The notes beneath the pieces are model-generated. The model was not told where the DNA came from. It saw only the letters and a program-made list of their open reading frames with translations, and did no database searches. This document shows positions 1,275-43,867 of a DNA stretch of 64,000 nt, in pieces. The stretch comes from Periplaneta americana. Taxonomy: Eukaryota > Arthropoda > Insecta > Blattodea > Blattidae. Positions within the stretch are counted from its first letter, which is position 1. Each line of letters opens with the position of its first letter. A program made the translations under genes and the position numbers. The stretch covers positions 15,703,800-15,767,799 of the forward strand of contig NC_091131.1 of NCBI RefSeq assembly GCF_040183065.1. The letters run 5' to 3'.

Positions 1275-1475
1275 TTAATCGTTGTCGAAGACCCGCGGGT
1301 CCAAGGGCAAGTGAACATTCCTGAGGTGCTTGGGAAGCCTGGGGGGTGGTGGGGATGGGCGTCCTGGACGTTTGGGACGTCGCGCCTGAGGGCGACGCCA
1401 GATGCGGAATCGCTTCAGCCATCTGTGTTTCGCACGCCGCAATCTTGCACCGTGGTGCATGTCCGCCATTCTGTC
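1275..1475 (-). CDS. Terminal exon of secreted cationic Pro/Arg-rich peptide precursor, gene 1
   Basis: Seen: on the minus strand a pyrimidine-rich acceptor ending TTCCAG precedes an in-frame exon of 66 codons plus stop. It opens with a 14-residue segment ending G-A-R-L-R-R, a furin-type R-x-R-R site. Then comes a basic aromatic stretch (RWLKRFRIWRR) and a Pro/Arg region (RRPKRPGRPSPPPPRLP), and it ends in a more neutral tail rich in L, P and D. It is much GC-richer than its flanks. The phase (0) matches the donor of the signal-peptide exon at 9130-9279, giving a 116-residue precursor with a 7.65 kb intron. The first 14 residues align without gaps to the exon at 33015-33194. Known: R-x-R-R processing and Pro/Arg-rich cationic tails are typical of insect antimicrobial peptide precursors. 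Inferred: secreted defence peptide; a neuropeptide or other secreted basic peptide is possible. Confidence 0.72.
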   Translation of the reverse strand, partial: DRMADMHHGARLRRAKHRWLKRFRIWRRPQARRPKRPGRPSPPPPRLPKHLRNVHLPLDPRVFDND

Positions 1476-1817
1476 CTGGAATATAATAGTAATATTAAAT
1501 AACACGGAATTGACAGTTCATTTAGCAGTGTATTGGACTGTATTTTTTCCTAATATCAGTTAACTATTAATGTTCAACATTTTTCATAAACAATTACTAG
1601 GGTTTCCAACTCTAGAGGACGGAAATTCAGGACACATTAAAAAATAAAAAAGCACATAAACTTATAATGAATTTCAGTGTAAATACACTTGTATTTTGAG
1701 CTCAATTATTCAACTAGAATTGTTTATAGGGTTGCCAACTGTCCGGAATTTTTCCGGATTGTCAGGAAATCGGTCCTCTATGCAGGAAAAAAATTAAATT
1801 GTTTTCAGGACGCTTAG
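1476..1817. other. Intron sequence of gene 1 with no recognised element
   Basis: The acceptor AG lies at 1476-1477. The rest is AT-rich and holds a short duplicated phrase (GGGTT..CCAACT) near 1600 and 1730, but nothing that I can classify. Confidence 0.45.
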
Positions 1818-2925
1818 GGTCGATTTCTAAAACACGGACGAAATCGTGGTTCCAAACCTCGGTTTTTAAACCGCGATCCAGATCTGAATCTTTATGCGAT
1901 TTCTGAAATGAAGTCGAGACTCGGCTTGAAAAGAAACCGAGGTTCATGGGTTTTATATATGACAACGCAGCTTAGAATCGATTTTTATTCTTGTAAACAG
2001 TCGATATTAGAAACAAATCAACATCAGGATTAATATTTTTTATTGAATTGCATAAGTCACGTTCTTTTTTTCTCACCTAAGGTATTGTTATATTTATTAA
2101 TTTGCACAATATATGTGCGTATTTAATAGGGAGAGAATTTTTAAGTACCAGAATGGTATTGCCCAAATAATTAGCACAAATCGAGCGTTTATGTTGTAGT
2201 TTATCATTTGTCCATAACAACTACCAACATTAACTACCTGAAAACTAGGTTCCAAGGGATTAATAACCTAAATATTAACTGGATTAAAATTTCAATTGAA
2301 ACTAAAATGTAGTATGGTTTTATTTTCACATATAATAGGCTAGTATTACGTGGAAAGCCCCAGTAGCATAAAAGTTAAAATGAGAAGACAAAATTACGTT
2401 TGCTTCATATTCTTACAGGGCCACATAATTTTCGAGTATTGAATAAAATGTGCAAAACTACTGTAAAGACTAAGAATTAAAATATATCGTCTTATAGGTA
2501 TAACGGTTTAATTAATATAAAATATTATATCTTCTTTCCCTCAAAGCAACAAATAGGTGCATTTCGTTGCAGATTATTATTTAGCATTTTTGCTAAATTT
2601 TGCGTCGATTCCTTCGAAAATCGAAATATTCGCCAGAAATTATTGTCGTTATATAATTACAAATGATCATTCCTCTCTCTCATCACTCTAAACCGGAGAT
2701 TTAATATTCGTAGATACAAATTTTCCTTGAAAATCATCCAGCTGATCTACTTCCTCCATCTTGCATACATGTAGCCATGGTTTTAAACCTACCCCAGCCG
2801 TGGTCTCTGCGTCAGACCATGGTTTCGAGCCGTGGCTCAGAAAAATGAAAAAAACCTCGTTTTATAAATCCAAACGCGGTTTAAAGCCATGTCGATGGTC
2901 TAGACTTCGTTTTAGAAATCGATCC
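1818..2925. mobile_element. Non-autonomous DNA transposon with terminal inverted repeats
   Basis: The left end (GGGTCGATTTCTAAAAC) matches the reverse complement of the right end (GGATCGATTTCTAAAAC), and the similarity continues imperfectly inward with further inverted blocks such as TTTAAACCGCG. No transposase frame remains in the 1.1 kb interior and I see no clear target-site duplication, so the superfamily is unassigned. It lies in the intron of gene 1. Confidence 0.6.
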
Positions 2926-3091
2926 ATGTCCGGAATTTTGCTCATTGCAATATTATAGTATTCTAAAATGTCATATTGATATTTCGTCATTAGAGGTCCG
3001 ACGTAGTTTGCAATGGCTACCAAATACTCTTTATCATCATCAACAACAATACGATTTGGGCCCATTGGCCCGTTTCGTCTCCATAGCAATA

Positions 3092-3883
3092 TTAAAATTG
3101 GTCTTTCCAGCGTTTTCTAGGGCGTCCGATTCGTCTTCTCCCTTGGGGTTTATAATGGTGTAGTCGGTATGGAATGCGAGTTGGTTCCATCCTACATATA
3201 TGTTCATGCCATTTATTCCTATATTCTGTGATAGTTTCTGTAATATTTGGCATATTTAGTTCCTGTCGTATGTCTTCATTTCGCTTGTGGTCCAATAAGC
3301 TATATCCTGCTATTGGCCTTAGCAGTCTCATTTCAGCTGCTTCTATTCTCTTCATTTGTTGAGTTGTCATACACCATGTTTCGGATCCATAGGTTAATGT
3401 TGGAATCGCCATTGTTTTGTAAAATTTTAAAATTGTGTCAGTCCTAACTTTCTTCTTTAGTGTTCTTTTTATCGTGCCAATTAACTGCTGGAATTTAGAG
3501 AGCTTCCTATCTATGTCGTTAATTTGTTCATATGATATCATACAACCTAGGTAATTAAAACAGTTCACTTGCTCTATGATTTCATTATTAATAATTATTT
3601 TTGTTCTTAATGGCGTTGTTCCCTTAAAACCCATCACTTTAGTCTTTTTAGTAGATATCTGAAGATCATATTCTTTGGCGATGCAGTTCAGTTTAAATAA
3701 AGCTCGTTGGAGGTCATCTTCTGTGGTTGTAAATATAGCCTGATCATCAGCAAACAATATTGTATTTAGAGGTGTATTGGTTCGGTTAAAAATTGTTTCC
3801 ATATGTAATAGCCACCTTCTGGTGACGTCGTCAATGTATAAATTAAATAAAACAGGTGATAAAGAACACCCTTGTCGAACACT
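3092..3883 (-). mobile_element. LINE reverse transcriptase fragment (C-terminal half)
   Basis: A 236-residue open frame on the minus strand extends upstream in frame to about 3883, where it is cut by a stop. Visible RT motifs are VRQGCSLSPVLFNLYIDDV (finger/palm region), LFADDQA (the YADD catalytic box with F for Y), FNYLG, and the carboxyl tail with TYGSETWCMT and GRPRKRWKD. It is a non-LTR element different from the GHVARMGES family below. The 5' half and endonuclease are absent, so this is a 5'-truncated dead copy. Confidence 0.85.
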
Positions 3884-4203
3884 TTATAATTATACGATAT
3901 AGGCTACTTCTTGATGAATAGAAGCAAAGAATTTGTAAGTATTATAAGCTCTTTGGATAGAGCACAGAAGCGAGTTCGTGGTGCTCATTGGTGATATGGG
4001 TTGGTAGTAAATCAGCATTTGAATAACTTGAGTGACTCTGATGTGCATCTGTTTGAGGAGGAAGCACTGAATGTGTATCAGAGGGCCATTGACTATTTGC
4101 AAAAATGGTTTGGTTACTATTCTTCACTTCTTAAGAAAATCACTTTTCTAAGTCTTAATGATATTTTCACGTTCAGTGTCCTTACTGAAATTGTGAATAT
4201 ATT

Positions 4204-5286
4204 ACTTACTTACTTACTTACTGGCTTTTAAGGAACCCGGAGGTTCATTGCCGCCCTCACATAAGTCCGCCATTGGTCCCTATCCTGAGCAAGATTAATC
4301 CAGTCTCTATCATCATATCCCACCTCCCTCAAATCAATTTTAATAGCTATTATCTTCCCATCTACGTCTCGGCCTCCCTAAAGGTCTTTTTCCCTCCCAA
4401 CTAACACTCTATATGCATTTCTGGATTCGCCCATACGTGCTACATGCCCTGCCCATCTCAAACGTCTGGATTTAATGTTCCTAATTATGTCAGGTGAAGA
4501 ATACAATGCATGCAGCTCTGTGTTGCGTAACTTTCTCCATTCTCCTGTAACTTCACCCCTCTTAAGGTACGTTTTCCTCGGTGCAACTATTGCAATGATC
4601 GTGCAACGATAATCGTTGATCACTATTTCTTTGTATTTTCTAGAGTCGTGGCAGTCGCTCGGAGAAAAACAGCTGCATAGAAAATACAAAGAAATATTGC
4701 TCAACGATTATCGTTGCACGATCATCGTTGAACGATCATCGTTGAACGATCATCGCAATAGTCGCACCGAGGAAAACGTACCTTTAGCCCCAAATATTTT
4801 CCTAAGCACCTTATTCTCAAACACTCTTAATCTCTGTTCCTCTCTCAAAGTGAGAGTCCAAGTGTCACAACCACAAAGAACAACCGGTAATATAACTGTT
4901 TTCTAAATTCTAACTTTTAGACTTTCTGACAGCAGACTAGATGACAAAAGCCTCTCAACCGAATAATAACAGGCATTTCCCATATTTATTCTGTGTTTAA
5001 TTTCCTCCCGAGTATCGTTTATATTTGTTACTGTTCCTCCAAGATATTTGAATTTTTGCACCTTTTCAAAGGATAAATCTCCAATTTTTATATTTCCATT
5101 TCGTACAATATTCTCGTCACGAGACATAATCATATACGTTGTCTTTTCGGGATTTACTTCCAAACCTATCACTTTACTTGCTTCAAGTAAAATTCCCGTG
5201 TTTTCCCTAATCGTTTGTGGATTTTCTCCTAACATATTTACGTCATCCGTATAGACAAGCAGCTGATGGAACCCGTTCAATTCCAA
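4204..5286 (-). mobile_element. 5'-truncated LINE of the GHVARMGES family, with (TAAG)n tail
   Basis: Read on the minus strand it encodes QLLVYTDDVNMLGE (YADD box as YTDD), [17 protein letters not shown], and after a nested MITE the tail SRRLRWAGHVARMGESRNAY, followed by a 3' UTR ending GTTCCTTAAAAGCCAG and a (TAAG)n tail. Compared with the copy at 28403-29700 it is truncated at the 5' end and carries frameshifts. The nested element at 4565-4783 interrupts the frame. RTE- or Jockey-type affinity is not settled from sequence alone. Confidence 0.85.
4565..4783. mobile_element. Harbinger-like MITE nested in a LINE
   Basis: 219 bp with near-perfect terminal inverted repeats AGGTACGTTTTCCTCGGTGC, followed by inner inverted blocks (AACGATAATCGTTG type). 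It is bounded by TTA at 4562-4564 and 4784-4786. Uninterrupted LINE copies read TCTTAGCCC across this point, so the insertion and its 3-bp duplication are read directly. A TTA/TAA target with short TIRs is the PIF/Harbinger pattern; no transposase is present. Confidence 0.8.
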
Positions 5287-5511
5287 ACTGGACTTTGAAA
5301 ATGGTACCAAGATCCTATTGAAAAAGATGATGCCGATATTGAAAGATCTAACAATTCCTCAAGAACGCTGGGACACTGTTTTGAAACTTAAAGAAAATTG
5401 CTGAACACATACATACTCTTCCAATTAGGAATGCTCATGTGGAGCGAGCTTTTTTGATAAATAATAACGAGGAATGCGCACAAATGTGCATATAGTATAG
5501 TTGTTGCGCGG

Positions 5512-7250
5512 TTATTCGTTGCTGTAGTCTTTCAGGGACCTTGTTCTGCTGGGACAAACAGTGAAATGATAGCGGCTACAATGTTTCTCGCACAGATTGC
5601 ACACACACTGGTCTGTTGGCTCGTGGAATCCTGGCTTCGTGCATAGTTTATGGTGGAATCCGTGAACTGCTAGTCTTGTCAGGGCGCTGCGTAGATCGCA
5701 GTTTGGTCCTGTCCAATTTCTATCTACCATGGCGTCCGTTGCGTAGAATTCCTGCGAGATCTCTTCTCTTTTCTTTCTTCATTCGAGTAGAAGACAAGAG
5801 TCTAGGGAGCGTAAGCAATTCTGCTCCTCGCAATGCCGAATGAGGGCGGAAAGACACGAATATTATACCTGCTATGCTGAATGACAGCGACAGCCGTAAA
5901 AGAGGAAGCAGGCAATATTGCTTCTCGGAATGCCGTGCGGTCACGTGCTCACTGATGTAATAATATAGTTTTTATGTTAAAATATATCTTGAGATAGACC
6001 TAACTGAATTTTCGGTCATTGTATTACAGAGGTGTGAAAATTATTAGAATAATCTTAATTTTAAAGGTTTTTTTTTATAGTTCCTTCACAAATATTAATT
6101 GAATTGAGGAATATTGGTATATATTACTATACTGATGTAGGATATATTTACTACTAACAATGCCGGAAAGCATTGTTGTACATTGGTATTTTTCTTATTT
6201 TACAATTGTTATGGGAATTCAGAAATTATTATATTATGTTGGCGGAATTGGAAACATCAAAAATTAATTAAGAAATGCTTTAAACAAATTGTTCTTTGCG
6301 TTTACATTGTTGTGAAGTTCAAATGAACGTATACATCTGTTTTGTGCATTAACATTGCCATTTTAATTGTAATTAGATTTATTTATATTTAATTATAATA
6401 CAGATAATGACCGCAAATTCAGTTAGGCCTACCTCAAGATGTATTTTAACATAAAAACTATATTATTACATCAGTGAGCACGTGCAGAATTTCCCTTCTC
6501 ATCTTCGGACAAACACAATAATGGTGAATCATGTCATATGTACGCAGATGCTGAAATACAGGTCTTTAAAGATAAGTTTAATTTAATTTAAAATACAAAA
6601 TCTCCACACCGCACGGCATTCCGAGGAGCACTATTGCCTGCTTCCTCTCTACGGCTTTCGCTGTCATTCGGCATAGCAGGTTTAATATTCGTGTCTTTCC
6701 GCCCTCATTCGGCATTGCGAGGAGCAGAATTGCTTACGCTCCCTAGACTCTTGTGAGTAGAAGTTCATCCGCTCGTTTTGAAGATGGCAGCAGCAGTTGT
6801 GTTCGAACGTCCTCGATGAAGAAGGTTTCCCGGACAAGCTCGTAAGCTAGTCTTGATGGTGTATATATTGATATTCCTAGAGTTGTCTTTAGAAATCTGG
6901 CTTTAACTGCTTCCAGGTTTTCCAGGGCTTTTTTTTTTGGATAGATATGACCAAATTAGATGTATACCGTATGTGAGAATTGGGAATATTTTTGCTCTGA
7001 AAAGAGTCATTGCAGTGTCCAGCGACAGTTTCTGTAGCTGTCTTATCTCGTAAATAGCTTTCGTTGCTGCTATTGCCCTTTCCTTTGCGTGTATGTTGAA
7101 GCATGTTCTGGTTGTCTGGAAAGTTACCCCAAGGTATTTGAAGCTGTTCACAATCTGTAATAGCTTTTTTAATAAAGAATCTCTGAAGTGACGAGAGAAA
7201 CCGGATGAGGCCAGAACTTGTAAAATCATAACTCTTAGTAAAGAAGAACT
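5512..7250 (-). mobile_element. LINE C-terminal fragment of a second family, split by a TIR element
   Basis: Minus-strand frames at 6903-7229 (FKYLGVTFQTTRTCFN, FPILTYGIHLIW) and 5512-5784 (TGPNCDLRSALTRLAVHGFH, then a Cys-rich tail CVCNLCEKHCSRYHFTVCP resembling a zinc knuckle) belong to one element. The two halves are separated by the 960-bp TIR element at 5794-6753 and otherwise run on in frame apart from one TGA and a shift at an A-run. The C-terminal Cys/His motif follows the RT, as in several insect LINE clades (R1, I, LOA and Jockey types). Confidence 0.75.
5794..6753. mobile_element. Long-TIR element with 9-bp target-site duplication (Mutator-like MITE)
   Basis: The outer arms of about 150 bp are inverted copies beginning ACAAGAGTCTAGGGAGCGTA. 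Inner blocks around 5941-6024 and 6406-6486 are also inverted, so nearly the whole element can fold back. It is flanked by GAGTAGAAG at 5785-5793 and 6754-6762. A 9-bp duplication with long arms fits the Mutator superfamily, but no transposase frame exists to confirm it. About 120 bp near 6487-6604 has no partner in the left arm and may be a later insertion or a deletion on the left. Confidence 0.75.
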
Positions 7251-7328
7251 TTAATAGCAGCAACAAACAGTACCATTAATTATTCTTCATTGAATAAAGT
7301 TTTGCTCCAAAAATTAATATTTCGTTTG

Positions 7329-7329
7329 C

Positions 7330-7384
<55 letters not shown>
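7329..7384. repeat. (ATT)n microsatellite
   Basis: About 18 perfect trinucleotide units. Probably grown from the A/T-rich 3' tail of a neighbouring LINE. Confidence 0.95.
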
Positions 7385-7385
<1 letters not shown>

Positions 7386-7559
7386 GGCTCCATTAAAACC
7401 CGAGGCCCCATGCGTTCGAACGACTATGAAGCAGTAAAAGGGCAAAGGTCGTGCATAACGGCAGTAGTTTTTAAACATCTTGGGTTAAGCAATTTCCATG
7501 GGTACGGTATTAAAAAATCAAACGATGTTATTTCCTGTACCATTATTAAAGTTTCCTCG

Positions 7560-9279: not shown

Positions 9280-10215
9280 CTCTCCAAGACTGCTAATAGG
9301 TCTCCTCGCTGGTTCTTCTTCCTGAACAGGAAATTTATCAACTTGCGTGATCCTTTGCGTTGATCCGTGTGGTATGACAAGAATACAATGTTACCCAGTT
9401 CGACTAATTGTGCAACATCGTGTTGAAATAACGAGTGGTATTGCTGGAGGCGGAATGTCGCATCATGGCGCTACGAAACATTGAACTAATGAGACAGTAC
9501 TGAGAAGATGCAAGGATTGACCACGGACGTTTTTCGTGTTGTTTTCTCAGATTGCAGAAGGCAATTCTGCTGTTAAAGTCGTACCTCTCCTTGACGAAGG
9601 AATGCAGACCACGTGGTATTGGAGTAGCGAAAAGTGGGGGGGGGATTGGATTGTTGTTCTGCCTCTCCGATAACTGAGTACCACAGTATCATTACGTGCG
9701 CGCGGGTTCGATCCCCGGTGTTAAATGGATCAACATTCACGAAGTTTGTTCAGTTATAGACAACTTTGTTCAATACTAGATTAACGAATTTCTTGTATGC
9801 TATGTATTAATTAAAAAAATTCCTACAGTAATGGTCGCTTTAAATGCTGTAACTTACAAACGTTTATTGCGTCTTCCTTTTTATACTATGTTTACAGCCA
9901 GAGGTCTCTGCGTTCTTACGAGATCGCATCCGGAGATATGCAATCCAAGTCAGAACGTCTTGCAGAGATATCTGTCGGAAAATAAAGGCAGCTTGATGGG
10001 GAGGGGAACTATTAACCGATACTGGGTGACACTACGTTGTTTACTTGCAGAAATTCTCTGGCAAGTGGCATATACTTTTGTAGTTCGCTTCCAGGAATGC
10101 TAAGAGTAGGATTTTTTTTTTTTCAATCTTAAAAAATCTGAGAACCGTTCTAAGATAGTTAAATATGGTGAAGAACCTGTAAATTGAAAAAGAAATCTCT
10201 TTAAAATACCCTTTG
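9280..10215. other. Upstream region of gene 1; no other gene seen
   Basis: This should hold the 5' UTR and promoter of the minus-strand gene. A GATA-type site (TTATCA) lies near 9335. A G-run with GGGGATTGG is near 9640. A B-box-like phrase GGGTTCGATCCCC at about 9708 suggests a decayed SINE head. None of these is strong enough to call. The 90-codon frame at 9831 has no recognisable domain. Confidence 0.4.
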
Positions 10216-16060: not shown

Positions 16061-16128
16061 CACAAAATAAATCTCTTTCCGCAGGAATATTCCCACATTC
16101 AATTACAACAATGTAAAGTTAAAATTTC

Positions 16129-16201
16129 TGGAGGCGCCGGGTATCGATCCCGGTACCTCTCACATGCTAAGCGAGCGCTCTACCATCTGAGCTACGCCCC
16201 C
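16129..16201 (-). tRNA. tRNA-Ala-AGC: tRNA-Ala (AGC)
   Basis: A 73-nt cloverleaf on the minus strand: acceptor GGGGGCG paired with CGCCTCC and discriminator A, D arm with TAGCTCAGATGGTAGAGC (good A box), anticodon loop TTAGCAT giving AGC, one G-U pair in the anticodon stem, and T arm with GGGATCGATACCC (B box). A TTTT run follows within 10 bases, fit for Pol III termination. No intron. Confidence 0.95.
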
Positions 16202-16342
16202 AGTTGCGAATCTCAATTCCAGCATCTTGAATCCAGAGCAACAGATTACACCGAACGTTTCTCGTTGCCCCACTTTCACCAATCGTGGTATTAAGTGCCA
16301 ATACAGGTTAGTAAACGTGCTCCAAGAACCACATTATTGTCT

Positions 16343-16415
16343 GGGGGCGTAGCTCAGATGGTAGAGCGCTCGCTTAGCATGTGAGAGGTACCGGGATCGA
16401 TACCCGGCGCCTCCA
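16343..16415 (+). tRNA. tRNA-Ala-AGC: tRNA-Ala (AGC), divergent twin
   Basis: Identical over all 73 nt to the minus-strand gene, with the 5' ends facing each other across 141 bp. It is followed by TTTTT seven bases later. Identity and inverted placement suggest a recent inverted duplication or gene conversion. Confidence 0.95.
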
Positions 16416-16507
16416 GTTGTTTTTATTTATCGAAATATTTACTTTTATATTATGGGATGTAATGTAGAAATGGTAGATATGGTAGAGACTGGATCAATCT
16501 TATTATT

Positions 16508-17176: not shown

Positions 17177-17370
17177 ATGCCATCATATTACAGTGGATTA
17201 TAATAGCAGAGTGCATAAGAAAATCCTCAGACTATATCTGTCTAAAACTCCTTTGTTTCACAGTAAATGAATTAAGCATGTAATTTCCATACCTGGTACA
17301 GTATGTACTTCTAGTTTTTGGTTGTATTAAATGCAAAGAAATTAGTGAAAATGTAGCTGATGGCCTAGCT

Positions 17371-18960
17371 AGGCCTATTATTACCACTACTACTAGATCT
17401 ACTATGACCACTACTACTAGGCCTACTAATACCACTACTACTAGGTCTACTATGACCACTACTACTAGGCCTACTATTACCACCAAAACTAGACCTACTA
17501 TTAGGCCTATTATTGCCACTACTACTAGACCTACTATTACCACAAAAACTAGGCCTACTACTACCACTAATACTAGGCCTATTATTACCACTACTACTAG
17601 GCCTACTATTACCACCAAAACTAGACCTACTATTACGACTACTGTTAGGCCTATTATTACCACTACTACTAGACCTACTATTACCATAAAAACTAGGCCT
17701 ACTACTACCACTAATACTAGGCCTATTATTACCACTACTACTAGGCCTACTATTACCACCAAAACTAGACCTACTATTACGACTACTGTTAGGCCTATTA
17801 TTACCACTACTACTAGACCTACTATTACCACCAAAACTAGACCTACTATTACGACTACTGTTAGGCCTATTATTACCACTACTACTAGACCTACTATTAC
17901 CACCAAAACTAGACCTACTATTACGACTACTGTTAGGCCTATTATTACCACTACTACTAGACCTACTATTACCACCAAAACTAGACCTACTATTACGACT
18001 ACTGTTAGGCCTATTATTACCACTACTACTAGACCTACTATTACCACCAAAACTAAGCCTACTACTACCACTAATACTAGGCCTATTATTACCACTACTA
18101 CTAGGCCTACTATTACCACCAAAACTAGACCTACTATTACGACTACTGTTAGGCCTATTATTACCACTACTACTAGACCTACTATTACCACCAAAACTAA
18201 GCCTACTACTACCACTAATACTAGGCCTATTATTACCACTACTACTAGGCCTACTATTACCACCAAAACTAGACCTACTATTACGACTACTGTTAGGCCT
18301 ATTATTACCACTACTACTAGACCTACTATTACCACCAAAACTAGACCTACTATTACGACTACTGTTAGGCCTATTATTACCACTACTACTAGACCTACTA
18401 TTACCACCAAAACTAAGCCTACTACTACCACTAATACTAGGCCTATTATTACCACTACTACTAGGCCTACTATTACCACCAAAACTAGACCTACTATTAC
18501 GACTACTGTTAGGCCTATTATTACCACTACTACTAGACCTACTATTACCACCAAAACTAGACCTACTATTACGACTACTGTTAGGCCTATTATTACCACT
18601 ACTACTAGACCTACTATTACCACCAAAACTAGACCTACTATTACGACTACTGTTAGGCCTATTATTACCACTACTACTAGACCTACTATTACCACCAAAA
18701 CTAGACCTACTATTACGACTACTGTTAGGCCTATTATTACCACTACTACTAGACCTACTATTACCACCAAAACTAAGCCTACTACTACCACTAATACTAG
18801 GCCTATTATTACCACTACTACTAGGCCTACTATTACCACCAAAACTAGACCTACTATTACGACTACTGTTAGGCCTATTATTACCACTACTACTAGACCT
18901 ACTATTACCACAAAAACTAAGCCTACTACTACCACTAATACTAGGCCTACTATTACCGCT
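17371..18960. repeat. 24-bp minisatellite with higher-order structure
   Basis: About 66 copies of a 24-bp unit of the type ACTAGGCCTATTATTACC plus six bases. Four variants (translating as RPIITTTT, RPTITTKT, RPTITTTV and KPTTTTNT) are arranged in 72-bp triplets with periodic substitution of the fourth type. The unit length is a multiple of three and lacks stops, so three frames on the two strands stay open for 560-592 codons. These are artefacts of the repeat, since the amino-acid periodicity equals the DNA periodicity in every frame. Confidence 0.95.
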
Positions 18961-20362
18961 ACTAATTGTATTAACAAGTCTGTACTGACCTCTAACTTGG
19001 TGGTCACCAACTACACAATGAATAGATTGTTTTGTGATAAAATTTATTCTCATTATATTTTAAATCAGTTTCCAGAATTTTTATGATCTCATATTTCATC
19101 ACTAAATATTTTCTAAGCACCATATACCTTCCTCTTCCTTTGCATGAAAGGACTGAAATATAGATCATTTTAAATATTACAGTAAATATCCATTATTGTG
19201 TCTTTAAAACAATACTAGTAATACTGAAAATTAATGCTGACATTGCCATTATTCAATATTTCACATACTTATCCCGAGTGTATATGGGTGATTTAATTTA
19301 TTTTTTAGAATATCGCCAAAGATGAATCATTATAATACTTTAATAAATATAGCGCTCCTCTGCCATTCATGTTTATTTCATCACGACTCATCCTTTGTAA
19401 AAGATGTTTGAAACAGTGTCTGTCACCAGGCTACATCAATGTATTGTGGTACTGTTCTTGAATTTCGCGCCGCAAACACTCCCTTTAATGGCGGATGCTA
19501 GCCGATTCAATTTGTGACATTTTTCTTGCCTTCCACTCACGGGTATGTGTCTCTAGTAAGTATTACAAACTCTTTGTGTTATACAGGTTTGTTCAGTGTT
19601 GCCAATCTAGCGACTTTAACTCTTTTTCAACAACAATTTCTTTTAACTTTTATATTGCTTAAATAAGGATTTAGTGACCTTTTTAGCACCCCATAGTGAC
19701 AAAATTTAATCTTTCTTTGTCGATAATGAGAAATCTAGCGACTTTACAACTACTTTTTGGCGACTTTCCGTACACTCTGTTGGAGACACTGGTTTTTTGT
19801 GCAATGTAAATAATGGCGGACAATAAGAAGAAGGTTGACTGTTCTCCAAGTTGTTATCATGTTATGGTGTTTGATACTGCTAAACATAATAAAGCTTTAT
19901 AAAACGACAATTTTCGTTTAGTAATACAGTTAATTGAACATTTATGAATGTACCTATCATATCCATTAATAATTAATGGTTGTTATAAACATAATATAAT
20001 TATAGGTTATGTTATTTGATACTGCTGAACACGATAGAGCCTTATAAAATATAAGATTGTTTTTGTATTGAGGCAAGAAATTGAAAGAAATATATATACA
20101 TGTACCTATGATATCTATTAATATTAATAATAATGGATATTTTATTTGCACAATCTGTCACTCGTATATTTCAAACAGAAAAGAAACAACTGAACTTGGA
20201 TCATCTAACTTAATCGGAGAAATTTCTTCAGTCAAAGTTGACTTTAGTTTGAGACAAATTAATCTCAGATTAGACTTTATACAACACAAAATTCCAAGTT
20301 CAGCTGAAACAAGGATCAATATAACCTCTGATCTAAGATTAAATGGTTTATACAATCGGGCC

Positions 20363-21101: not shown

Positions 21102-21173
21102 TCCGGTGTGGCTTAGTGGATAAAGCGTCAGCACGTAGAGCTGAAAACTCGGGTTCGAGTCCCGGTGCCGGAG
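21102..21173 (+). ncRNA. tRNA-like module of the dispersed monomer
   Basis: A 72-nt cloverleaf-compatible sequence (TCCGGTGTGGCTTAGTGG, then the T arm GGGTTCGAGTCCC) followed by GAGAATTTTTCTCC with a T5 terminator. It is the diverged relative of the modules in the array at 54.6-57.5 kb. The anticodon loop ACGTAGA lacks the universal T33, so a working tRNA is doubtful. Confidence 0.55.
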
Positions 21174-28402: not shown

Positions 28403-29700
28403 ACTTACTTACTTACTTACTGGCTTTTAAGGAACCCGGAGGTTCATTGCCGCCCTCACATAAGCCCGCCATTGGTCCCTATCCTGAGCAAGATTAATCC
28501 ATTCTCTATCATCATATCCCACCTCCTTCAAATCCATTTTAATATTATCTTCCCATATACGTCTCGGCCTCCCCAGAGGTCTTTTTCCTTTTGGCCTCCC
28601 AACTAACACTCTATATGCATTTCTGGATTCGCCCATACGTGCTACATGCCCTGCCCATCTCAAACATCAGATTTAATGTTCCTAATTATGTCAGGTGAAG
28701 AATAAAATGCGTGCAGTTCTGTGTTGTGTAACTTTCTCCATTCTCCTGTAACTTCATCCCTCTTAGCCCAAAATATTTTCCTAAGCACTTTATTCTCAAA
28801 CATCCTTAACATATGTTCCTCTCTCAAAGTGAGTCCAAGTTTCACAACCATAAAGAACAACCGGTAATGTAACTGTTTTATAAATTCTAACTTTCACATT
28901 TTTTGACACCAGACTGGATGATAAAAGCTTCTCAACCGAATAATAACAGGCATTTCCATATTTATTCTGTGTTTAATTTCCTCCCGAGTATCATTTATAT
29001 TTGTTACTGTTGCTCCAATATATTTGAATTTCTCCACCTCTTCAAAAGATAAATCTTCAATTTTTATATTTCCATTTCGTACAATATTTTCGTCACGAGA
29101 CATAATCATATACTTTGTCTTTTCGGGATTTACTTCCAAACCTATCTCTTTACTTGTTTCCAATAAAATTCCCGTGTTTTCCCTAATCGTTTGTGGATTT
29201 TCTCCTAACATATTTAGGTCATCCGCATAGACAAGCAGCTGAGGTAACCCGTTCAATTCCAAACCCTCTCTGTTATCCTGGACTTTCCTAATGGCATACT
29301 CTAGAACAAAGTTAAAAAGTAAAGGTGATAGTGCATCTCCTTGCTTTAGCCCACAGTGAATTGGAAACGCATCTGACAGAAACTGACCTACACGAACTCT
29401 GCTGTACGTTTCACTGAGACACATTTTAATTAATAGAACTAGTTTCTTGGGAATACCAAATTCAATAAGAATATCATATAAAACTTCTCTCTTAACCGAG
29501 TCATATGCCTTTTTGAAATCTATGAATAACTTATACTCTCATTTTTTCTCCAATATCTGTCGAATACAAAATATCTGGTCAATGGTTGATCTATTACGCC
29601 TTAAACCACACTGATGATCCCCAATAATTTCATCTACATATGTCAATAGTGAAATTAATCTAAGAGGTAGAAAATCACTGAATTTAAGTAGATGATTAAG
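28403..29700 (-). mobile_element. GHVARMGES-family LINE, longest copy, 5'-truncated
   Basis: On the minus strand the 176-residue frame (28894-29424) has [20 protein letters not shown] and [19 protein letters not shown], with the intact YADD catalytic box, and [17 protein letters not shown]. Upstream to about 29700 the RT continues as [20 protein letters not shown] and IIGDHQCGLRRNRSTIDQIF with one TGA in place of Trp. Downstream, frame-shifted, are the GHVARMGESRNAYRVLVGRP tail and GRPRRIWEDNIKMDLKEVGY, then the 3' UTR and (TAAG)n. The endonuclease is missing, so it cannot move. Confidence 0.9.
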
Positions 29701-32646: not shown

Positions 32647-33014
32647 TACGTCACGGTGAGATAGCTGAAATCAAAGAAATTAACGACACACCCTCTATAG
32701 AATTTTATTGAATCTTGATATCATGCTATATAATACACTTTTTAAATAGATTAGAACACTACACTCATTTTCTGCTAGGGCTGTAACAAATATTATTTCC
32801 GAATAATAGGAAAAATTGATACTTTGCATTTCAAGACTTAATGTGTGAAGAAAAATGTTGTTCAAAACACTACATGTTGGCTGAAAGGGTTTAAAAGTCT
32901 TTGTAAAGTGAGGTAATCCCAGATCTGTTGTTTCCTGTCGGTCGATGAAGGATGGCGATTCCCTGATCTGTTTGTGTATGGTTGCGGTTTTCTTCGAGGT
33001 AATGCTGGCGGCAT
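32647..33014. other. 3' flank of gene 2; no other gene seen
   Basis: Downstream of the stop codon of the minus-strand gene 2. A TTTATT (AATAAA on the minus strand) near 32704 could serve polyadenylation. Confidence 0.35.
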
Positions 33015-33194
33015 TCAGATTTTCTTCCTGCCCATTCCTCTGAGGTAGGGCGGGAGAGTGGGGGGATCAGGCAGTGGCCTGCGTGTTCTCCTGCGTGGAC
33101 GATTCGGGCGTTTTTTTTTAAAGCGCCCCCAGAAGCGCAGTCTCTTCGGGGACCTGCGTACCCGGACTCCTTCCTCGTGGAGTGCTACATGGTC
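33015..33194 (-). CDS. Terminal exon of secreted cationic Pro/Arg-rich peptide precursor, gene 2
   Basis: Seen: on the minus strand CTGTTTCAG precedes a phase-0 exon of 59 codons plus stop. Order: DHVALHEEGVRVRR (acidic propiece ending in R-x-R-R), a basic aromatic segment (SPKRLRFWGRFKKK), an Arg/Pro region (RPNRPRRRTRRPLPDPP), TLPPYLRG and MGRKKI. The predicted mature part is extremely basic. The G-R-K-K near the end could be an amidation and dibasic cleavage signal. GC-rich against AT-rich flanks. The first 14 residues align without gaps to the gene 1 exon at 1275-1475, with D, A, G and R-x-R-R conserved. It pairs with the signal exon at 43733-43867 (104-residue precursor, 10.5 kb intron). 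Known: Pro/Arg-rich peptides with such processing are common in insect immunity. Function here is inferred. Confidence 0.72.
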   Translation of the reverse strand, partial: DHVALHEEGVRVRRSPKRLRFWGRFKKKRPNRPRRRTRRPLPDPPTLPPYLRGMGRKKI

Positions 33195-34774: not shown

Positions 34775-35755
34775 AAAAATGTTCAATGCCTAAATGTCTA
34801 AATAAAATTTACGTCTAATATGTAAATGTCTAAATAAAATTTACGTCTAATATGTAAATGTCTAAATCAAATTTACGTCTAATATTTAAATGTCTAAATA
34901 AAATTTACGTCTAATATGTAAATGTCTAAATAAAATTTACGTCTAATATGTAAATGTCTAAATCAAATTTACGTCTAATATTTAAATGTCTAAATAAAAT
35001 TTACGTCTAATATGTAAATGTCTAAATAAAATTTACGTCTAATATGTAAATGTCTAAATAAAATTTACGTCTAATATGTAAATGTCTAAATAATATTTAC
35101 GTCTAATGTGTAAGTGTCTAAATAAAATTTACGTCTAATGTGTAAATGTCTAAATAAAATTTACGTCTAGTGTGTAAATGTCTAAATAAAATTTACGTCT
35201 AATGTGTAAATGTCTAAATAAGTTTTACGTCTAATGTGTAAATGTCTAAATAAAATTCACGTTTAATGTGTAAATGTCTAAATAAAATTTACGTCTAATG
35301 TGTAAATGTCTAAATAAAATTTACGTCTAATATTTAAATGTCTAAATAAAATTTACGTGTAATGTCTAAATAAAATTTACTCTAATGTGTAAATTTCTAA
35401 ATAAAATTTACGTCTAATATGTAAATGTCTAAATTTACATCTAATGTGTAAATGTCTAAATAAAATTTGTCTAATGTGTAAATGTCTAAATAAATATTAC
35501 GTCTAATGTGTAAATGTCTAAATAAAATTTACGTCTAATGTGTAAATGTCTAAATAAAATTTACGTCTAATGTGTAAATGTCTAAATAAAATTTACGTCT
35601 AATGTGTAAATGTCTAAATAAAATTTACGTCTAATGTGTAAATGTCTAAATGAAATTTACGTCTAATATTTAAATGTCTAAATAAAATTTACGTCTAGTA
35701 TGTAAATATCTAAATAAAATTTACGTCTAACGTATAAATTTCTAAATAAAATGTA
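34775..35755. repeat. 32-bp minisatellite
   Basis: About 30 copies of TAAATGTCTAAATAAAATTT plus ACGTCTAATGTG, with ATGT/ATAT/ATTT variants in blocks. Its core resembles the flanks (ATTACGTCTAAGGACA near 34680 and TATTAGACGTCATT near 37320). Confidence 0.95.

Positions 35756-37247: not shown

Positions 37248-37300
<53 letters not shown>
36761..37300 (-). mobile_element. CR1-like LINE 3' UTR with flanking trinucleotide tracts
   Basis: It follows the 15.1 kb copy closely, from the (TTA)n tail and GGCCTTAACTCTGCCAG-type end through about 430 bp of UTR, but stops before the coding end. An (ATT)n tract at 37252-37304 abuts its far side. Confidence 0.8.
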
Positions 37301-37306
<6 letters not shown>

Positions 37307-37437
37307 TAGGCTAAATGGTATTAGACGTCATTGCAAGTTAGACTATCTAGTATTAGACATTTTTGTTAATTGGACTAGGTTGTATTAGATTGGTTCAAAA
37401 GATAAAATGTCATTAGACTTACAAAATTAGACTTTGA

Positions 37438-37626
37438 GGGCCGTACTCATAGATATTCTTAGCGCAGACTTCCGGTGGATGATCAGCGAACTAACGTTTT
37501 TCGTATTCATAAACCAGTGTTAGCGATATGATATGATATGAATCCTGTACAAGTAACCAGTCGATAGCCGGAGCTAGTTTAGCACGCTCGTAGCGCGGGC
37601 TAGCGAAATGTCTATGAATAGCACTT
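37438..37626. mobile_element. Degraded MITE
   Basis: Left end GTACTCATAGATATTCTTAG resembles the inverse of the right end (GTGCTATTCATAGACATTTC), with GCTAGC-type blocks near both. Similarity is imperfect and target duplication unclear. Confidence 0.5.
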
Positions 37627-37824
37627 AATGTCATTAGATTTAAAATCCTTAGACCTACTCACTGCCATCTGAATTTAATTTGTTATTTGGCGGGAAACGT
37701 ATAAATTACATTGTTATTGGAGGCAAAAATACCTTTAATCCCCTACCAGTAGATGTAGCCATGGTTGCCAGATTCTATCGTCAGGAATTCAGGACAGATG
37801 ATGATACTGCATACCTTAACGTGA

Positions 37825-38214
37825 CTTACTTACTAATGACTTTCAGAGAACCTGGAGGTTCATTGCCGCCCTAACATAAGCCCTCCATCGGTGCCTATCC
37901 TGAGTAAGATTAATCCAGTCCCTACCATCATATCCCACCTCCAGCAAATCCATTTTAATGTTATCCTCCCATCTACGTCTCGGTCTCCCCTAAGGTGTTT
38001 TTCCCTCAGGTCTCCCAACTAACACTCTATACGCATTTTTGGATTCACCCATATGTGCTACATGTCCTGTCCATCACGAATGTCTAGTTAATCTTCTCAA
38101 AAGAATATTAGCTAAAATTTTGTATGTCGTCAATAAAAGTGATATTCCTCGAAAGTTACTACAGTTAGTCTTTACCCCTTCTTAAATATAGGTACGATTA
38201 TGGACTTCTTCCAT
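37825..38214 (-). mobile_element. Internally deleted LINE insertion with 13-bp target duplication
   Basis: TACCTTAACGTGA stands at 37812-37824 and 38215-38227. Between them, on the minus strand, an N-terminal RT piece (SIIVPIFKKG, then NFRGISLLLTTYKILANILL) is fused to the GHVARMGES-type 3' end and (TAAG)n-like tail. The RT palm in between is gone. The junction lies near 38075-38085. Confidence 0.8.
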
Positions 38215-38699
38215 TACCTTAACGTGATTACACATGAAGAGCACAGGAAAAGAACGTGCTTTGTCCACTTTTTTTCAAAAATGAGTTATGCATGCTATGA
38301 GATGCAGGATTCCATGTAGTTTAAAGTTATTAATCGACCAATGTGATAATGTGAATAGTCGAAGTGCTACAAGAGATTTTAGATTTGGCGTATAGGGAAA
38401 GAACGTGCTAAGTCCTCTCATTACAGGGAAATAATGTGCTCTGTCCTCTGTTTCTGTGATTTAATTTTTAGTTTCCTTACGGATTGGCATGCATGTTATA
38501 GCAGGAAGAAGGGAATTGGAGTAAAAATAATATTCCATTCTTTTTCATTATTGTTATAATGAGAAAATTCGTTCTTGCTGCATAAACTTTATGTACAAGT
38601 ATAAATCTTTTTAGTTTGAGAAATTCAGTTTAGAAGTATAAGTGTTGTAAATTTGTCACTTAAATTTTAATATTATTATTAAATAATATTATATTATTG

Positions 38700-40099
38700 A
38701 ATGTTGAGTACTTCATCTGAGGATGGAACTCAGAGACCTTCGACTTCTAACAGTGTTAAGAAAAAGAAAGTACGAGGGAGAATGACTGCAGTCATGAAGA
38801 AATTAAGGGTTCAATCAAATGAAGTAGAAGACTGCAACTGTTAGTTAAAGTGTTTCGAGGAAGTAAGTGCTGAAGAAAGATCAAGTATTATAAGGCAATT
38901 TAATGATTTAGAAGACTGGAATCAACAATCATTACATATGACTGGGCTCATTACAATAATTCCAGTTTATCGAAAGCGATCAGTCATTACAGCAATGGAA
39001 GGACCAATAAATTGTATCTCCCAGAAGAACTATCAGTGAAAAAGATGTATGAGATGTTCAAGAAAAAATACCAAAATTTAATAATTTCATATGAAACATA
39101 CAGAATAATGTTCAACACCAAATTCAATATAGCATTTGGATATCCAAGGAGTGATACATGCATGTGATAAGTACACAGCTGAGATGGAAGTGCTGAATGC
39201 AAGACTGACTGAAAATAATTTAGATGGCAACATGAAGAAACAAGTTTTGGAATAAATTAATAAGATCACCAGTAACAACAAGGTCCATAAACTCAAAGTT
39301 GAAATATTTTATACCAGAAAGAGGAATGCTCGTTTAAGAAGTCGGAAGTTTGAAGAAACAGAAGCAATTTTCATGGACTACGAAAAAATGTATGCTTACC
39401 GTACATTAGTATCAATGATGTCTATTAGTATTACAGAAGGCAATTATCTGTTTACTCTTTCAATATTCATCAAATTTCAGATGAAACTTCAGTGTTTTGT
39501 AGTTGTACTGAAGATAATGGTAGAAAAGGAGCCAATGAAGTCGTATCCTTTTTAAATCACTTTGTGACAGGAATAATAGACAACAAAGCGGATATCTTGA
39601 ATATTTTTGTGATTCATGTTCAGGCCAGAGCAAGAATTATATTGTTCTGAAGTATCTTAATTATCTTGTGAACGAATTTAAACTTATGAACAGAATGAAA
39701 CATTCGTTTATGGAATGTAATAAAATATAGGACTAACTAATACAAATGCAGTAACAAAACTTCCAATGGGTTGGGTGCGGATCATGGTACAAGCTCGAAG
39801 TAAACCTACGCCTTTTGATGTTGTGGTGTTCAATCAAGATATGATGGGAAGTTGGGAGTCATTTCTGCAGAAGAAATATTTGAGGAAATACTCATTTCTT
39901 ACAAGGCCCATCAGAGGGGTAATCATCACAAAAGAACACCCTCACCTCATTCAACATCGTGATATGTGTAATGGAACTAGGATTTCATCGGTGGTGAGAG
40001 CTTCACTGCGATTTCGAGAGCAGCAATCTGAAGAATACCCATGTCCTGCTTACAGAGGCAAAACACAAATTATTTTGAATAATTTATTTTATATCTGCT
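38700..40099 (+). pseudogene. Decayed transposase-like gene of the Sola-like element
   Basis: The plus strand reads MLSTSSEDGTQRPSTSNSVK, then RSSIIRQFNDLEDWNQQSLH, then CDKYTAEMEVLNARLTENN, then NEVVSFLNHFV and FCDSCSGQNKNYIVLKYLNY, and in the 111-codon open frame at 39766-40101 MGWVRIMVQARSKPTPFDVV and YLRKYSFLTRPIRGVIITKE. Several stops and frame changes interrupt it. The Cys-rich N-terminus and DSCSGQNKN motif belong to a transposase-like family common in insect genomes, where that Asp may be catalytic. No intact copy is present here. Confidence 0.65.
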
Positions 40100-40261
40100 A
40101 ATAATTTAAATATCGGTAACATTATTTCTAACAAAGAAACTTCTCTGGTAATATCGAAGGAAAAGTATTAGGACCTCCAGATTTTGAAGGAATTTCGTGG
40201 ACACGAAGATAGAGTGTTTTACACAAACCTTCCACACTAGACTGGGCTGTGCCTTTTGGGA

Positions 40262-40316
40262 CAAAAGTGATTTTTATTGTTATTAGGTCCTGTGCAGTTT
40301 GGAACAAAAGTGATCA

Positions 40317-40349
<33 letters not shown>

Positions 40350-40378
40350 GGCTCTGTGCATTTTGAGTCAAAAGTGAG

Positions 40379-40420
<42 letters not shown>

Positions 40421-40459
40421 GTCCTGTGCTTTTTGGGACAAAATTGCACAAAAGTGATC

Positions 40460-40526
<67 letters not shown>

Positions 40527-40687
40527 GGCTTTGTGCATTTTGGGACAAAAGTGATTTTTATTATTATTAGTTCATGTGTATTTTGAGCCAAAAGTGATCT
40601 TTATTATTATTATACCTTGTGTGTTTTGGGACAGAATTGATCTTGCTTTATTCTTATGAGGCCCTGCGCATTTTGTGACAAAAGTGA

Positions 40688-40736
<49 letters not shown>

Positions 40737-40738
40737 GA
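40262..40738. repeat. Compound (ATT)n / 40-bp spacer repeat
   Basis: ATT tracts of different length alternate at least seven times with a spacer of the type GGCTCTGTGCATTTTGGGAC then AAAAGTGATC. The spacer, not only the trinucleotide, has been amplified. It yields a poly-Asn/poly-Ile frame that is not a gene. It lies inside the Sola-like element. Confidence 0.9.
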
Positions 40739-41456
40739 CCCACTCCACTTCATTACAGAAAAAGTTAAAAAAGGAAAGAGAAAATGTTTAACGTTATGTT
40801 AAGGTTTGTCAATCCCGTGATTTTGAAATTCTGAATTCAAAATTTCTATACACACAATACGCACAAACACACATACAAACACGTTTCCGGAAGAAAACGG
40901 CTTTACTTGTAATATTTAATCTAAAATTAATTCCTCCGTACATAAGAAGCACGTTTTTTCCCTGTACGTATGACATTACTTTACGTAAATGTCAATAAAA
41001 CTACAATTTTCAAAAATAAGGATGCAAACTTATATTCAAATTCATTCAGATAACCTGTTCTTTCATACTGACTTAAGTGTTCATTAATATCTCCGTTGGT
41101 ATCCATGGAATTTGGTTTCAAACTTTGAAAATGCTCTCCTGAAAAATTTGATAAAGTGGACAAAGCACGTTCTTTTCCTGTGCTCTTCACATTTGAATTA
41201 ATTCAATTTGTAATACAACTGGTTTGATTTGTTTCACGTATTTAAACCAATTGTATAGAAGCTAATTACTTTTCTTACATTTTTGCTACATTATGAAATT
41301 TCCTTTGAATTATTGATAAAGTCTGGAAAAATTATGTGATATTAGAGTCTGATCTATAAAGAAAGCATGATACAGTATTTACATTCTATAGATAATAAAT
41401 CAATTTCCAAAGAGAGTGAAGGCTAAAGATACGGTGCAATACTTAATACATACTAT

Positions 41457-41650
41457 CACAGTCTAGTATATACAGTCACGAAGTTGAATACGTAGAGAAT
41501 ATGCATCCATAGATAGTTGCTAACCACTAGGATCGCTACTATCGCCTCATCACAGACAATGCGAAATAGTACTGGCACAGTCTATTGTTCCTAGTACCCT
41601 TAACAACTCAAGCTTCGTGACTGTATAGTCTATAGGCCTACTAGACTGTG
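41457..41650. mobile_element. Small MITE, copy 2
   Basis: The same family as 20814-20995 but in the opposite orientation: ends CACAGTCTAGTATATACAGT and inverse, interior GATAGTTGCTAACCACTAGG. It has a few extra bases at its right end. No clear duplication. Confidence 0.75.
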
Positions 41651-41952
41651 GCATTACCGTTCTTATTTCAATACAACCCGATAGGAGGCAGCAGGCGGCA
41701 TTGAGAACTATGTTATACATAGGTTGGACAGGACCTTGAAAAAATGAGTAAGGAATTTTAACGACTATTTCGTTTATATGATGTCATTCTATTTTCGGCC
41801 AATAGAATGTTTGTACTTATTTTCTCTTCTGTTTAGTAAGTAATCGTAAGTTGTTCTGTTCTTGCATTTCTTTATACACCAGATTTCATATTATGCATTG
41901 CACTTATTTCCTTTGTTGTTATCGGGGTCCATTTGTTCATCTATATAATATA

Positions 41953-42859
41953 AGGTACCTGGGGGTATTAAGGCCCAGCATGTTATAAGGTCCACCACCT
42001 AGTTTTGCCATTAGTTATACACTTTTGGAAAAGAGAGCAACAGCCCTTAAGACCTATTTCTTCTTGCATTCGAGTGAGGTATAAAGAAATTTGATTCTCG
42101 TTCTTGTTTGTAGCTGACTGGTGGCAACAAGTTATGTGTGATTATTTCTGCTTTCATTATAACATTTTGCAAAATTTAAGTTGAGATTTAATCGTTTTAC
42201 TGTGTGTTATTAATATAATATTAAATGCACGTTATTGTGTAAACATTAAGAAGTTTGGGGCTACCGTGAAACTTTCGCTAATGAGCATATGAGCACTCCA
42301 TAACTTAAAATTGGCGCGAAGTAACAGAGCAGGAAATAAGGCCCATGAAATAAATACGTGGAAACTCCCACAAGTTCATAGAAGTCTCTGAACTATAAAG
42401 TTCAAACTCTGAAGCACAATCATTTTTTGCAAGAAATGAAACAAACGAAAGACTGACAATTCCTAATGCAGAAAGAGCATTGGATGAACCATCAACTTCA
42501 GGATTTGTAAACATCCAGGGGACGCGGAGAGAATTGTTGTAGATATAAATGTGTGTGTCTCTTGTGAATGTTGGGTGCACGATGAATGTGTAGGTCTCAC
42601 TGAGGAAAAAAACCGAAGACTTTGTATGCCCAAATTCTTTATTGTGGACCTTATTATCTGTCACAGCAGGGTATAAGGGCCAGTGACATGATGTTAATTT
42701 TCATTGCTCACAACATTTATGTGTCTGTTTGAATATTTATTTGAAGTAAAATATTACTATAAAAGTATGCTATTCCATTATTTAAAATTTGCTAAACGTC
42801 TCCATTTTAAAGAAAGAACGTTTTATTCCTTAGGTGGGCCTTATTACCCCCGGTTACCT
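41953..42859. mobile_element. Degraded transposon with PHD-like remnant
   Basis: Left end AGGTACCTGGGGGTATTAAG and the inverse of the right end (AGGTAACCGGGGGTAATAAG) match well. Between them the plus strand encodes, out of a continuous frame, ERALDEPSTSG and near 42550-42620 CECWVHDECVGLTEEK. That Cys-x2-Trp-x-His-x3-Cys string is the second half of a PHD finger, found at the carboxyl end of pogo/Tigger-like transposases. Other transposase parts are missing. Confidence 0.55.
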
Positions 42860-43079
42860 GAGGTTATGAAGATATGTGTAATGAAGTATGCAATCAATTG
42901 TAGGTATATATTAAGCAAATACATTTTTTAAATTACACATGGTAAATTTCCTTCAATTCTAATTCCGTTTGTGTACTCAGAAAATGTCAGTGTTCTGTCT
43001 AGCCTACTAAACATCAGGGGAAACCGGTTGAAATTCGGTCGGATGCTCTACCTTGACGGATGCTCTCTAAAGATAAGAA

Positions 43080-43675
43080 TTCACTACATCGTATCGCACG
43101 CATCGGACGAATCGCACGGATCGAAAAAAGACTATCTTTGCTGTAATTGTTATGTAACCGCGTTCACTACATCGTATCGGACGCATCGCCTCTCGGCAAA
43201 TCCGTCCACGTTTCTCGGATGCGTGCGATCATGGCCTTCTTTAATAAATCAATTTTAATTGGTCAACTGTTAGTATTATGTTGTGCCATGTTCATTGTCG
43301 CGCCAAAATGGCAGACGGAAAACTTATTTCGCTTGTAAAAAATTGCGAAGAATTATATAATTTGAGGCGTTCCCATTACAGTAATCAAGTCGTTTCTTGC
43401 AAATATATTATGTAACCAATATTTTTTTTCGTTTCTTCGTCTTCAATTAAGACGCATGAAGCAATTACAAATTCTTATTCGCTAACAGACGTAATTAATA
43501 GATCTAACTTCAACTCCTTTGCTTTCAGTAATGTCAATATCGTACGACGTCATGTTTTAAACAGCTGATAGGGAATCCGATGAGGCGATGAGGTGGAGCC
43601 GTTACAGCGAACGCACTGCACTTAAAATATCCGTTGCGTGCGATTCGTACGAGGAGTGCGATACGATGTAGTGAA
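43080..43675. mobile_element. Harbinger-like element with MADF-domain start
   Basis: TTCACTACATCGTATCGCAC at the left (a second copy lies at about 43163) is inverted at 43656-43675. At 43308 on the plus strand MADGKLISLVKNCEELYNLR then RSHYSNQ fits the opening helix of a MADF (Myb/SANT-like) domain, as found in the accessory protein of PIF/Harbinger transposons. The frame then leaves the domain, perhaps at an intron. No transposase. It ends about 57 bp from the donor site of gene 2 exon 1. Confidence 0.6.
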
Positions 43676-43732
43676 CGCTTACCTTAACAGGTCGAATGAA
43701 AACCGGTTGTAAGCTCTACTTTGTAGACTTAC

Positions 43733-43867
43733 CGGGAACTTGATGTGCTGCACGGGGAAGTTGGACCTCGCGGCGAGGGTCAAAGCGCCAGGATCCTCGC
43801 CCGCCTTCTCGGAGAACGCCGCGAGTACGAGCCCTGCGAGGAGGAGCAGGGATGCACAGGGCTTCAT
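43733..43867 (-). CDS. First coding exon (signal peptide) of secreted peptide precursor, gene 2
   Basis: Seen: 45 codons on the minus strand from ATG 43867, ending CCG followed by GTAAGT, a consensus donor in phase 0. The protein begins MKPCASLLLLAGLVLAAFSE, a compact signal peptide likely cleaved near A-F-S-E, then an acidic segment KAGEDPGALTLA and SNFPVQHIKFP. I chose this ATG over one 27 codons upstream because it puts the hydrophobic core at the usual distance from the N-terminus. GC-rich. The acceptor of matching phase is at 33194, where the R-x-R-R exon starts. A paired GATA motif lies 64-102 bases upstream. Its signal peptide is not obviously homologous to that of gene 1, which is common for fast-evolving secreted precursors. 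Confidence 0.75.

Follow-up and report, generated by a model that had tools for sequence, protein, structure and literature searches.

Two paired-exon genes on the minus strand

We analysed a 64,000-nucleotide stretch of the genome of the cockroach Periplaneta americana (NC_091131.1, positions 15,703,800 to 15,767,799; hereafter the window), for which an original prediction had proposed a tandem pair of paralogous genes encoding secreted cationic peptides that are rich in Pro and Arg and bear an R-x-R-R site. This proposal was supported at the level of the gene models and of the sequence features. Genes A and B are related neighbours on the minus strand, and in each a short exon for the signal peptide is paired with a terminal exon. 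The NCBI annotation holds a model for each, P0001 (gene A) and P0002 (gene B), both named "uncharacterized protein [Periplaneta americana]". The parts of the two genes, numbered from the first letter of the window, are as follows:

1275..1475, minus strand: gene A terminal coding exon, with DRMADMHHGA-RLRR, a 52-residue cationic Pro/Arg-rich tail and the stop; contained in P0001
1476..9129, minus strand: gene A intron of 7.7 kb, phase 0, GTAAGA...TTCCAG; junction as in P0001
9130..9279, minus strand: gene A signal-peptide exon, ATG at MGQLG; best hydrophobic 12-mer mean 3.04
9280..9321, minus strand: 5' part of the same exon in the NCBI gene A model, in-frame EEEPARRPISSLGE
9585..9692, minus strand: additional 5' coding exon in the NCBI gene A model, with no hydrophobic stretch; possibly 5' untranslated region (5'UTR)
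33015..33194, minus strand: gene B terminal coding exon, with DHVALHEEGV-RVRR, a 45-residue cationic Pro/Arg-rich tail and the stop; contained in P0002
33195..43732, minus strand: gene B intron of 10.5 kb, phase 0, GTAAGT...TTTCAG; junction as in P0002
43733..43867, minus strand: gene B signal-peptide exon, ATG at MKPCA; best hydrophobic 12-mer mean 2.90
43868..43948, minus strand: in-frame N-terminal extension of 27 residues in the NCBI gene B model, probably 5'UTR; best hydrophobic 12-mer 0.89

The four exons lay where they had been predicted, were open and kept phase 0, and the donors (GTAAGA in gene A and GTAAGT in gene B) and the pyrimidine-rich AG acceptors were recovered from the sequence. 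The proposed pairing of the exons was matched letter for letter by the junctions of the NCBI gene models (...FNEVQ/DRMAD... in P0001 and ...HIKFP/DHVAL... in P0002). The observation of two paired-exon genes is confirmed, with better support than the sequence alone could have offered when they were first proposed. The models probably derive from a published chromosome-level assembly of P. americana (scaffold N50 of 188.1 Mb), which is described as annotated by the NCBI pipeline with RNA sequencing and transcriptomes as evidence (PMC12774602). The cluster of P0002 had two member sequences on one contig, perhaps two isoforms.

The start codons differed from those first proposed, since the NCBI proteins begin 50 residues before MGQLG in gene A and 27 residues before MKPCA in gene B. 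These extensions are not hydrophobic: the best 12-residue means were 0.86 in gene A (first 40 of the 50 residues) and 0.89 in gene B, compared to 3.04 behind MGQLG and 2.90 behind MKPCA. We take them as probable 5'UTR translated in frame; otherwise the signal stretch would be internal.

The exons also stood out from their surroundings as GC-rich segments in AT-rich DNA, as had been claimed, with a GC content of 0.59 to 0.65 compared to 0.354 for the window. A GC content of at least 0.58 was found in 446 of the 63871 130-bp segments scanned, which merged into six islands, four of them being these exons. A scan of all six frames of the window for R-x-[KR]-R followed by at least 30 residues to the stop, with at least 15% Pro and at least 20% K+R, gave two matches, genes A and B, under thresholds set with the genes in view. 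Among the 190 first-ATG frames of at least 40 residues in the window, eight had a hydrophobic N-terminus, and the single GC-rich one of these was that of gene A. The frame of gene B was absent from this set because it has an earlier ATG.

Paralogy and probable constraint

The terminal exons were clearly related at the protein level, with a local score of 99 compared to a shuffle mean of 38 and maximum of 83; none of 5000 shuffles reached the local or the global score. The predicted gap-free alignment over the first 14 residues held, with six identities, and among 100000 shuffles its score was reached by 71 and its number of identities by 123. The block before RxRR was partly conserved between the two genes (D..A....G.R.RR), and both tails contained the motifs KR-x-R-x-W-x-R, RP.RP and RP.P.PP.LP..LR. 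The signal exons were weakly alike: out of 5000 shuffles, 69 reached the local score and 31 the global score, and the likeness became weaker when the hydrophobic part was removed (126 and 510 of 5000, respectively).

Over the 50 aligned codons of the terminal exons, the nonsynonymous divergence (dN) was 0.57 and the synonymous divergence (dS) was 3.1, with 27, 13 and 33 differences between A and B at codon positions 1, 2 and 3, respectively. Since silent sites are saturated, the dN/dS ratio is an indication rather than an estimate. A same-orientation blastn comparison of the two gene regions (E 1e-3) did not align the terminal exons as DNA and returned one match of 280 bp at 83%, taken as a repeat:

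4208-4480 (intron A) and 37824-38096 (intron B): shared 280-bp stretch

An old duplication under protein-level constraint fits these data best and is suggested by them. Because silent sites are saturated, relatives are predicted in other cockroaches.

Predicted precursors and mature peptides

The predicted propiece is N-terminal and about 40 residues long, and the phase-0 intron lies within it, which places the signal and the mature peptide in different exons. It had been described as acidic; for a signal cut chosen by visual inspection, this applied mildly to gene A (pI 5.4), whereas the propiece of gene B was neutral (pI 7.1). The predicted mature tails both had a pI of 12.0, with K+R at 16 of 52 residues in A and 18 of 45 in B and net charges of about +13 and +17, respectively. 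Proline made up 11 of 52 residues (21%) in A and 9 of 45 (20%) in B, and cysteine was absent from both. The first part of each tail is cationic and aromatic (KRFRIWRR in A and KRLRFWGR in B), and the second part is Pro-rich (RPSPPPPRLPKHLR in A and RPLPDPPTLPPYLR in B).

The predicted cleavage site ahead of the tail is followed by Ala in A and Ser in B, and the [KR]R sites within the tail are followed by Pro in three of four cases in A and two of five in B. Proline after a cleavage site is unfavourable for furin, and these internal pairs would thus tend toward protection from the same enzyme.

Searches for relatives and families

Among 5.8 billion proteins searched at E up to 10, the only matches were P0001 and P0002 (2 of 450, 1 of 8 and 1 of 21 candidates). 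The genes had been called lineage-specific, and this result is consistent with that term; however, the search requires shared exact 5-residue words, so diverged kin, for example in termites or in other cockroaches, would escape it. No Pfam or NCBIfam family was found above cut-off for A or B (Pfam: none at E 0.01), and at E up to 10 the sole Pfam match was a sub-threshold transglutaminase hit for B. A sequence search of the PDB with B and the tail of A yielded nothing relevant; the best match, 7zal (E 0.016, residues 22 to 46 of B), lay outside the tail and was taken as chance. Four strings of 8 to 9 residues from the two tails had no match in the main texts of the literature searched.

Comparison with known peptides

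Proline-rich antimicrobial peptides (AMPs) of insects, such as apidaecin, drosocin and oncocin/pyrrhocoricin, are, like the tails of A and B, cationic, Pro- and Arg-rich and free of Cys. However, A and B are longer, have an aromatic-basic first half and contain neither PRP nor YLP. Class I proline-rich AMPs are cationic and Cys-free with about 25% Pro or more, compared to the 21% and 20% in A and B at net charges of +13 and +17 and no Cys; membership in this ribosome-targeting class was dropped because PRP and YLP were each counted zero times in both mature parts. Cathelicidin-type precursors share with A and B the order of signal, propiece, basic cut site and C-terminal cationic peptide, which may itself be Pro/Arg-rich, but A and B have no cathelin domain (no Pfam match), and their propiece is about 40 residues long. 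Cysteine-stabilised cockroach AMPs (defensin, termicin and drosomycin) have at least six Cys, as opposed to none in the mature parts of A and B. An attacin domain, as in attacin/blattellicin, was likewise not found in A or B (Pfam, E 0.01).

Myticalins, linear cationic Pro/Arg-rich AMPs of mussels, resemble A and B in their secreted precursor, their linear Arg-rich mature peptide with a pI above 11, the convertase site between mature part and propiece, their multigene nature and their taxonomic restriction, as described in PMC5577615. However, the myticalin propiece is C-terminal and anionic, whereas in A and B the basic tail ends the protein and the propiece is N-terminal. The myticalin gene is described there as having three exons, with the signal, mature peptide and cleavage site in one of them and a second intron in phase 1. 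This comparison is by description, and no mussel protein was among the matches of the exact 5-residue-word search for A and B. Myticalin A5, with 28% Pro, had a far stronger inhibitory effect on T7 RNA polymerase than on translation (PMC5577615, section 2.7), which calls for caution about a ribosomal target even for a Pro-rich peptide.

Among cockroach surveys, one of Blattella reports expanded defensins, termicins, drosomycins and attacins, and its introduction counts "Pro-rich peptides" among cockroach AMP types (PMC7712779). In the parts covered of a P. americana immunity study, six AMP genes were assayed, none of them Pro-rich (PMC12864434). Kim et al. (2016) give 86 candidates, most of them outside their Table 4; a visual comparison of the 25 rows of that table, which cover 21 transcripts, showed no match to A or B (PMC4864078). 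A neuropeptide survey of Rhyparobia contained no precursor similar to A or B in the parts covered, which is weak evidence (PMC12604039).

Proposed function

We propose that these two paralogous P. americana genes encode small secreted precursors, from which the signal peptide would first be removed. A furin-like convertase would then cut at RLRR/A in gene A and RVRR/S in gene B, releasing a linear, Cys-free peptide with a pI of 12 and a length of about 52 or 45 residues, respectively. As host-defence effectors, the peptides would bind anionic microbial surfaces and then either act on the membrane or pass into the cell, where they would bind to nucleic acids or proteins as their targets. A microbial surface or an intracellular target seems the likeliest role, and an apidaecin-type ribosomal mechanism is not indicated because the tails lack PRP.

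We infer secretion, cleavage, expression and antimicrobial action from layout and composition, for which a defence peptide is the best fit and a good guess. An inducible Pro-rich AMP is already reported for P. americana (PMC5861062), which speaks for this reading. That both genes encode secreted, RxRR-released, cationic Pro/Arg-rich host-defence peptides we consider slightly better than an even prospect. The family is probably new within a known kind, and one member is possibly an already reported peptide, Paprp-1. A more specific picture is put forward tentatively, with clearly less confidence: A and B may belong to an old cockroach family of at least two genes for secreted linear defence peptides, sequence-unrelated to named insect AMPs, with an aromatic-arginine segment and a Pro-rich tail without PRP, released at RxRR. 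In this picture, purifying selection would have maintained them since an ancient duplication, one that left enough time for silent sites to become saturated.

Several observations weigh against a defence role. The NCBI models place 50 (gene A) and 27 (gene B) residues ahead of the signal stretch. Fast-evolving defence peptides do not typically show a dN/dS well below 1, as was found here, though with saturated dS and 50 codons alone. The tails contain further RX[KR]R sites, one in A (before Pro) and two in B (before Arg and Pro), and the tail of B carries an amidation-like GRKK site, so processing may go further than the RxRR cut. PRP and YLP are missing from both mature parts. In the aromatic-cationic stretch, the hydrophobic moment did not exceed that of shuffled sequences (1430 to 1801 of 5000 reached it in four tests), and an amphipathic helix for this segment was dropped on that ground. 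Furthermore, no NF-kappaB-like match (three patterns) was present within 1.2 kb upstream of gene A or gene B, although the window-wide rate predicts about 0.1 per 1.2 kb and the expectation was low anyway.

Alternative explanations

A special case of the defence-peptide reading, and not exclusive of it, is that gene A or gene B is Paprp-1. Li et al. (2018) describe 11 P. americana AMP genes, including the Pro-rich Paprp-1, whose induction by E. coli was particularly high (PMC5861062). Paprp-1 shares its species and its Pro-richness with A and B and is reported as an AMP gene, but both proteins are named "uncharacterized" in NCBI and UniRef, and we regard the identity as unlikely.

Somewhat less probable still is that A and B are secreted signalling peptides (neuropeptide, hormone or cytokine), whose constrained parts act on a receptor and whose basicity reflects processing sites. 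The RxRR site, the GRKK of gene B, the low dN/dS of the terminal exon and the partly conserved block before RxRR would all suit such a role. However, the mature part of gene A has no amidation site, no peptide hormone was among the PDB sequence matches listed for B and the tail of A, and 31 to 40% K+R with about 20% Pro is unusual for a receptor ligand. The block before RxRR loosely resembles insect parathyroid hormone (iPTH). Like A and B, iPTH has a small secreted precursor with basic cut sites (PMC7224569). In the description given there, its amidation/cleavage signal G[KR][KR] is strictly conserved, whereas this signal is absent from the mature part of gene A and occurs once, as GRKK, in gene B. 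With no hormone match in the PDB either, iPTH identity was dropped.

We assign a similarly low probability to the reading that A and B are basic, Pro/Arg-rich proteins secreted by a tissue without an immune role (salivary gland, accessory gland, cuticle or egg case), in which the basic region would bind acidic partners. Composition alone cannot discriminate between such proteins and defence peptides, and the lack of an NF-kappaB-like element upstream would agree with them, but in such proteins a short propiece is not usually separated by one RxRR from a tail that is basic throughout.

Finally, chance open frames, with exon pairs that are not real genes, are highly improbable: the introns are large, the signal exons are only weakly alike (69 of 5000 shuffles), NCBI prediction can be partly ab initio and blastn fails to align the terminal exons, but against this stand independent NCBI models with identical junctions, protein-level paralogy with a silent-site excess, and the fact that the exons account for four of the six GC islands and both of the two RxRR plus Pro/Arg tails in the window.

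Other features of the window

Candidate signals flanking the two genes are listed here:

1031..1036, minus strand: AATAAA downstream of gene A; weak, with 214 such matches in the window
9878..9885, minus strand: TATA-like box TATAAAAA upstream of gene A; a consensus match alone, with 35 such in the window
32704..32709, minus strand: AATAAA downstream of gene B; weak evidence
43934-43940, plus strand, and 43960-43966, minus strand: inverted GATA-type pair AGATAAG, 67-99 bp 5' of the gene B ATG; two of the eight AGATAAG in the window

The nearer site of the GATA-type pair lies inside the NCBI coding extension of gene B and the other just upstream of it. Because one site is inside this extension, we do not press the pair as an immune promoter element, and a regulatory role for it is a guess. 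A repeat origin of the NCBI gene A 5' exon was considered and dropped, as 9700-9720, just upstream of this exon, matched two of the window's tRNA genes in their 3' part with E values of 0.12 and 0.42, which is chance level.

Repeats and tRNA genes also occur in the window. LINE-like reverse-transcriptase fragments (RVT_1; LINE, long interspersed nuclear element) lie on the minus strand at 3092-3883 and 4903-5358 in the gene A intron and at 28894-29538 between the genes, and a 32-bp tandem repeat (34791-35752, 30.6 copies) lies within the gene B intron. Upstream of gene B, at a distance of roughly 1.1 kb, begins a 34-bp satellite (44999-46757, about 52 copies, 96%). A 600-residue open frame between genes A and B (17284-19086, plus strand) runs over a 72-bp minisatellite of 22 copies and reads as Thr-rich TTRPTITTKTRP repeats; other frames across the minisatellite are open too, and there was no Pfam match. 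Two tRNA-Ala(AGC) genes of equal score (16128-16202 and 16342-16416) lie in opposite orientation 139 bp apart. A tandem array at 54979-57503 (374-bp unit, 6.8 copies, 99% match) carries seven tRNA-Tyr(GTA) genes on the plus strand, and further tRNA-Tyr genes are at 54631-54702 (minus strand) and 21102-21173 (plus strand).

Implications

Peptide genes that are short, spliced and interrupted by large introns can readily be overlooked; A and B are annotated, but only under the name "uncharacterized". If active, the peptides would extend the published P. americana repertoire by a linear Pro/Arg-rich class, or provide such a class with a locus and a structure. If one of the genes is Paprp-1, the pair would supply its locus, its structure and a sister gene. 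Active peptides of this kind may also bear on the infection resistance of a microbe-exposed pest and on the control of its symbiont Blattabacterium.

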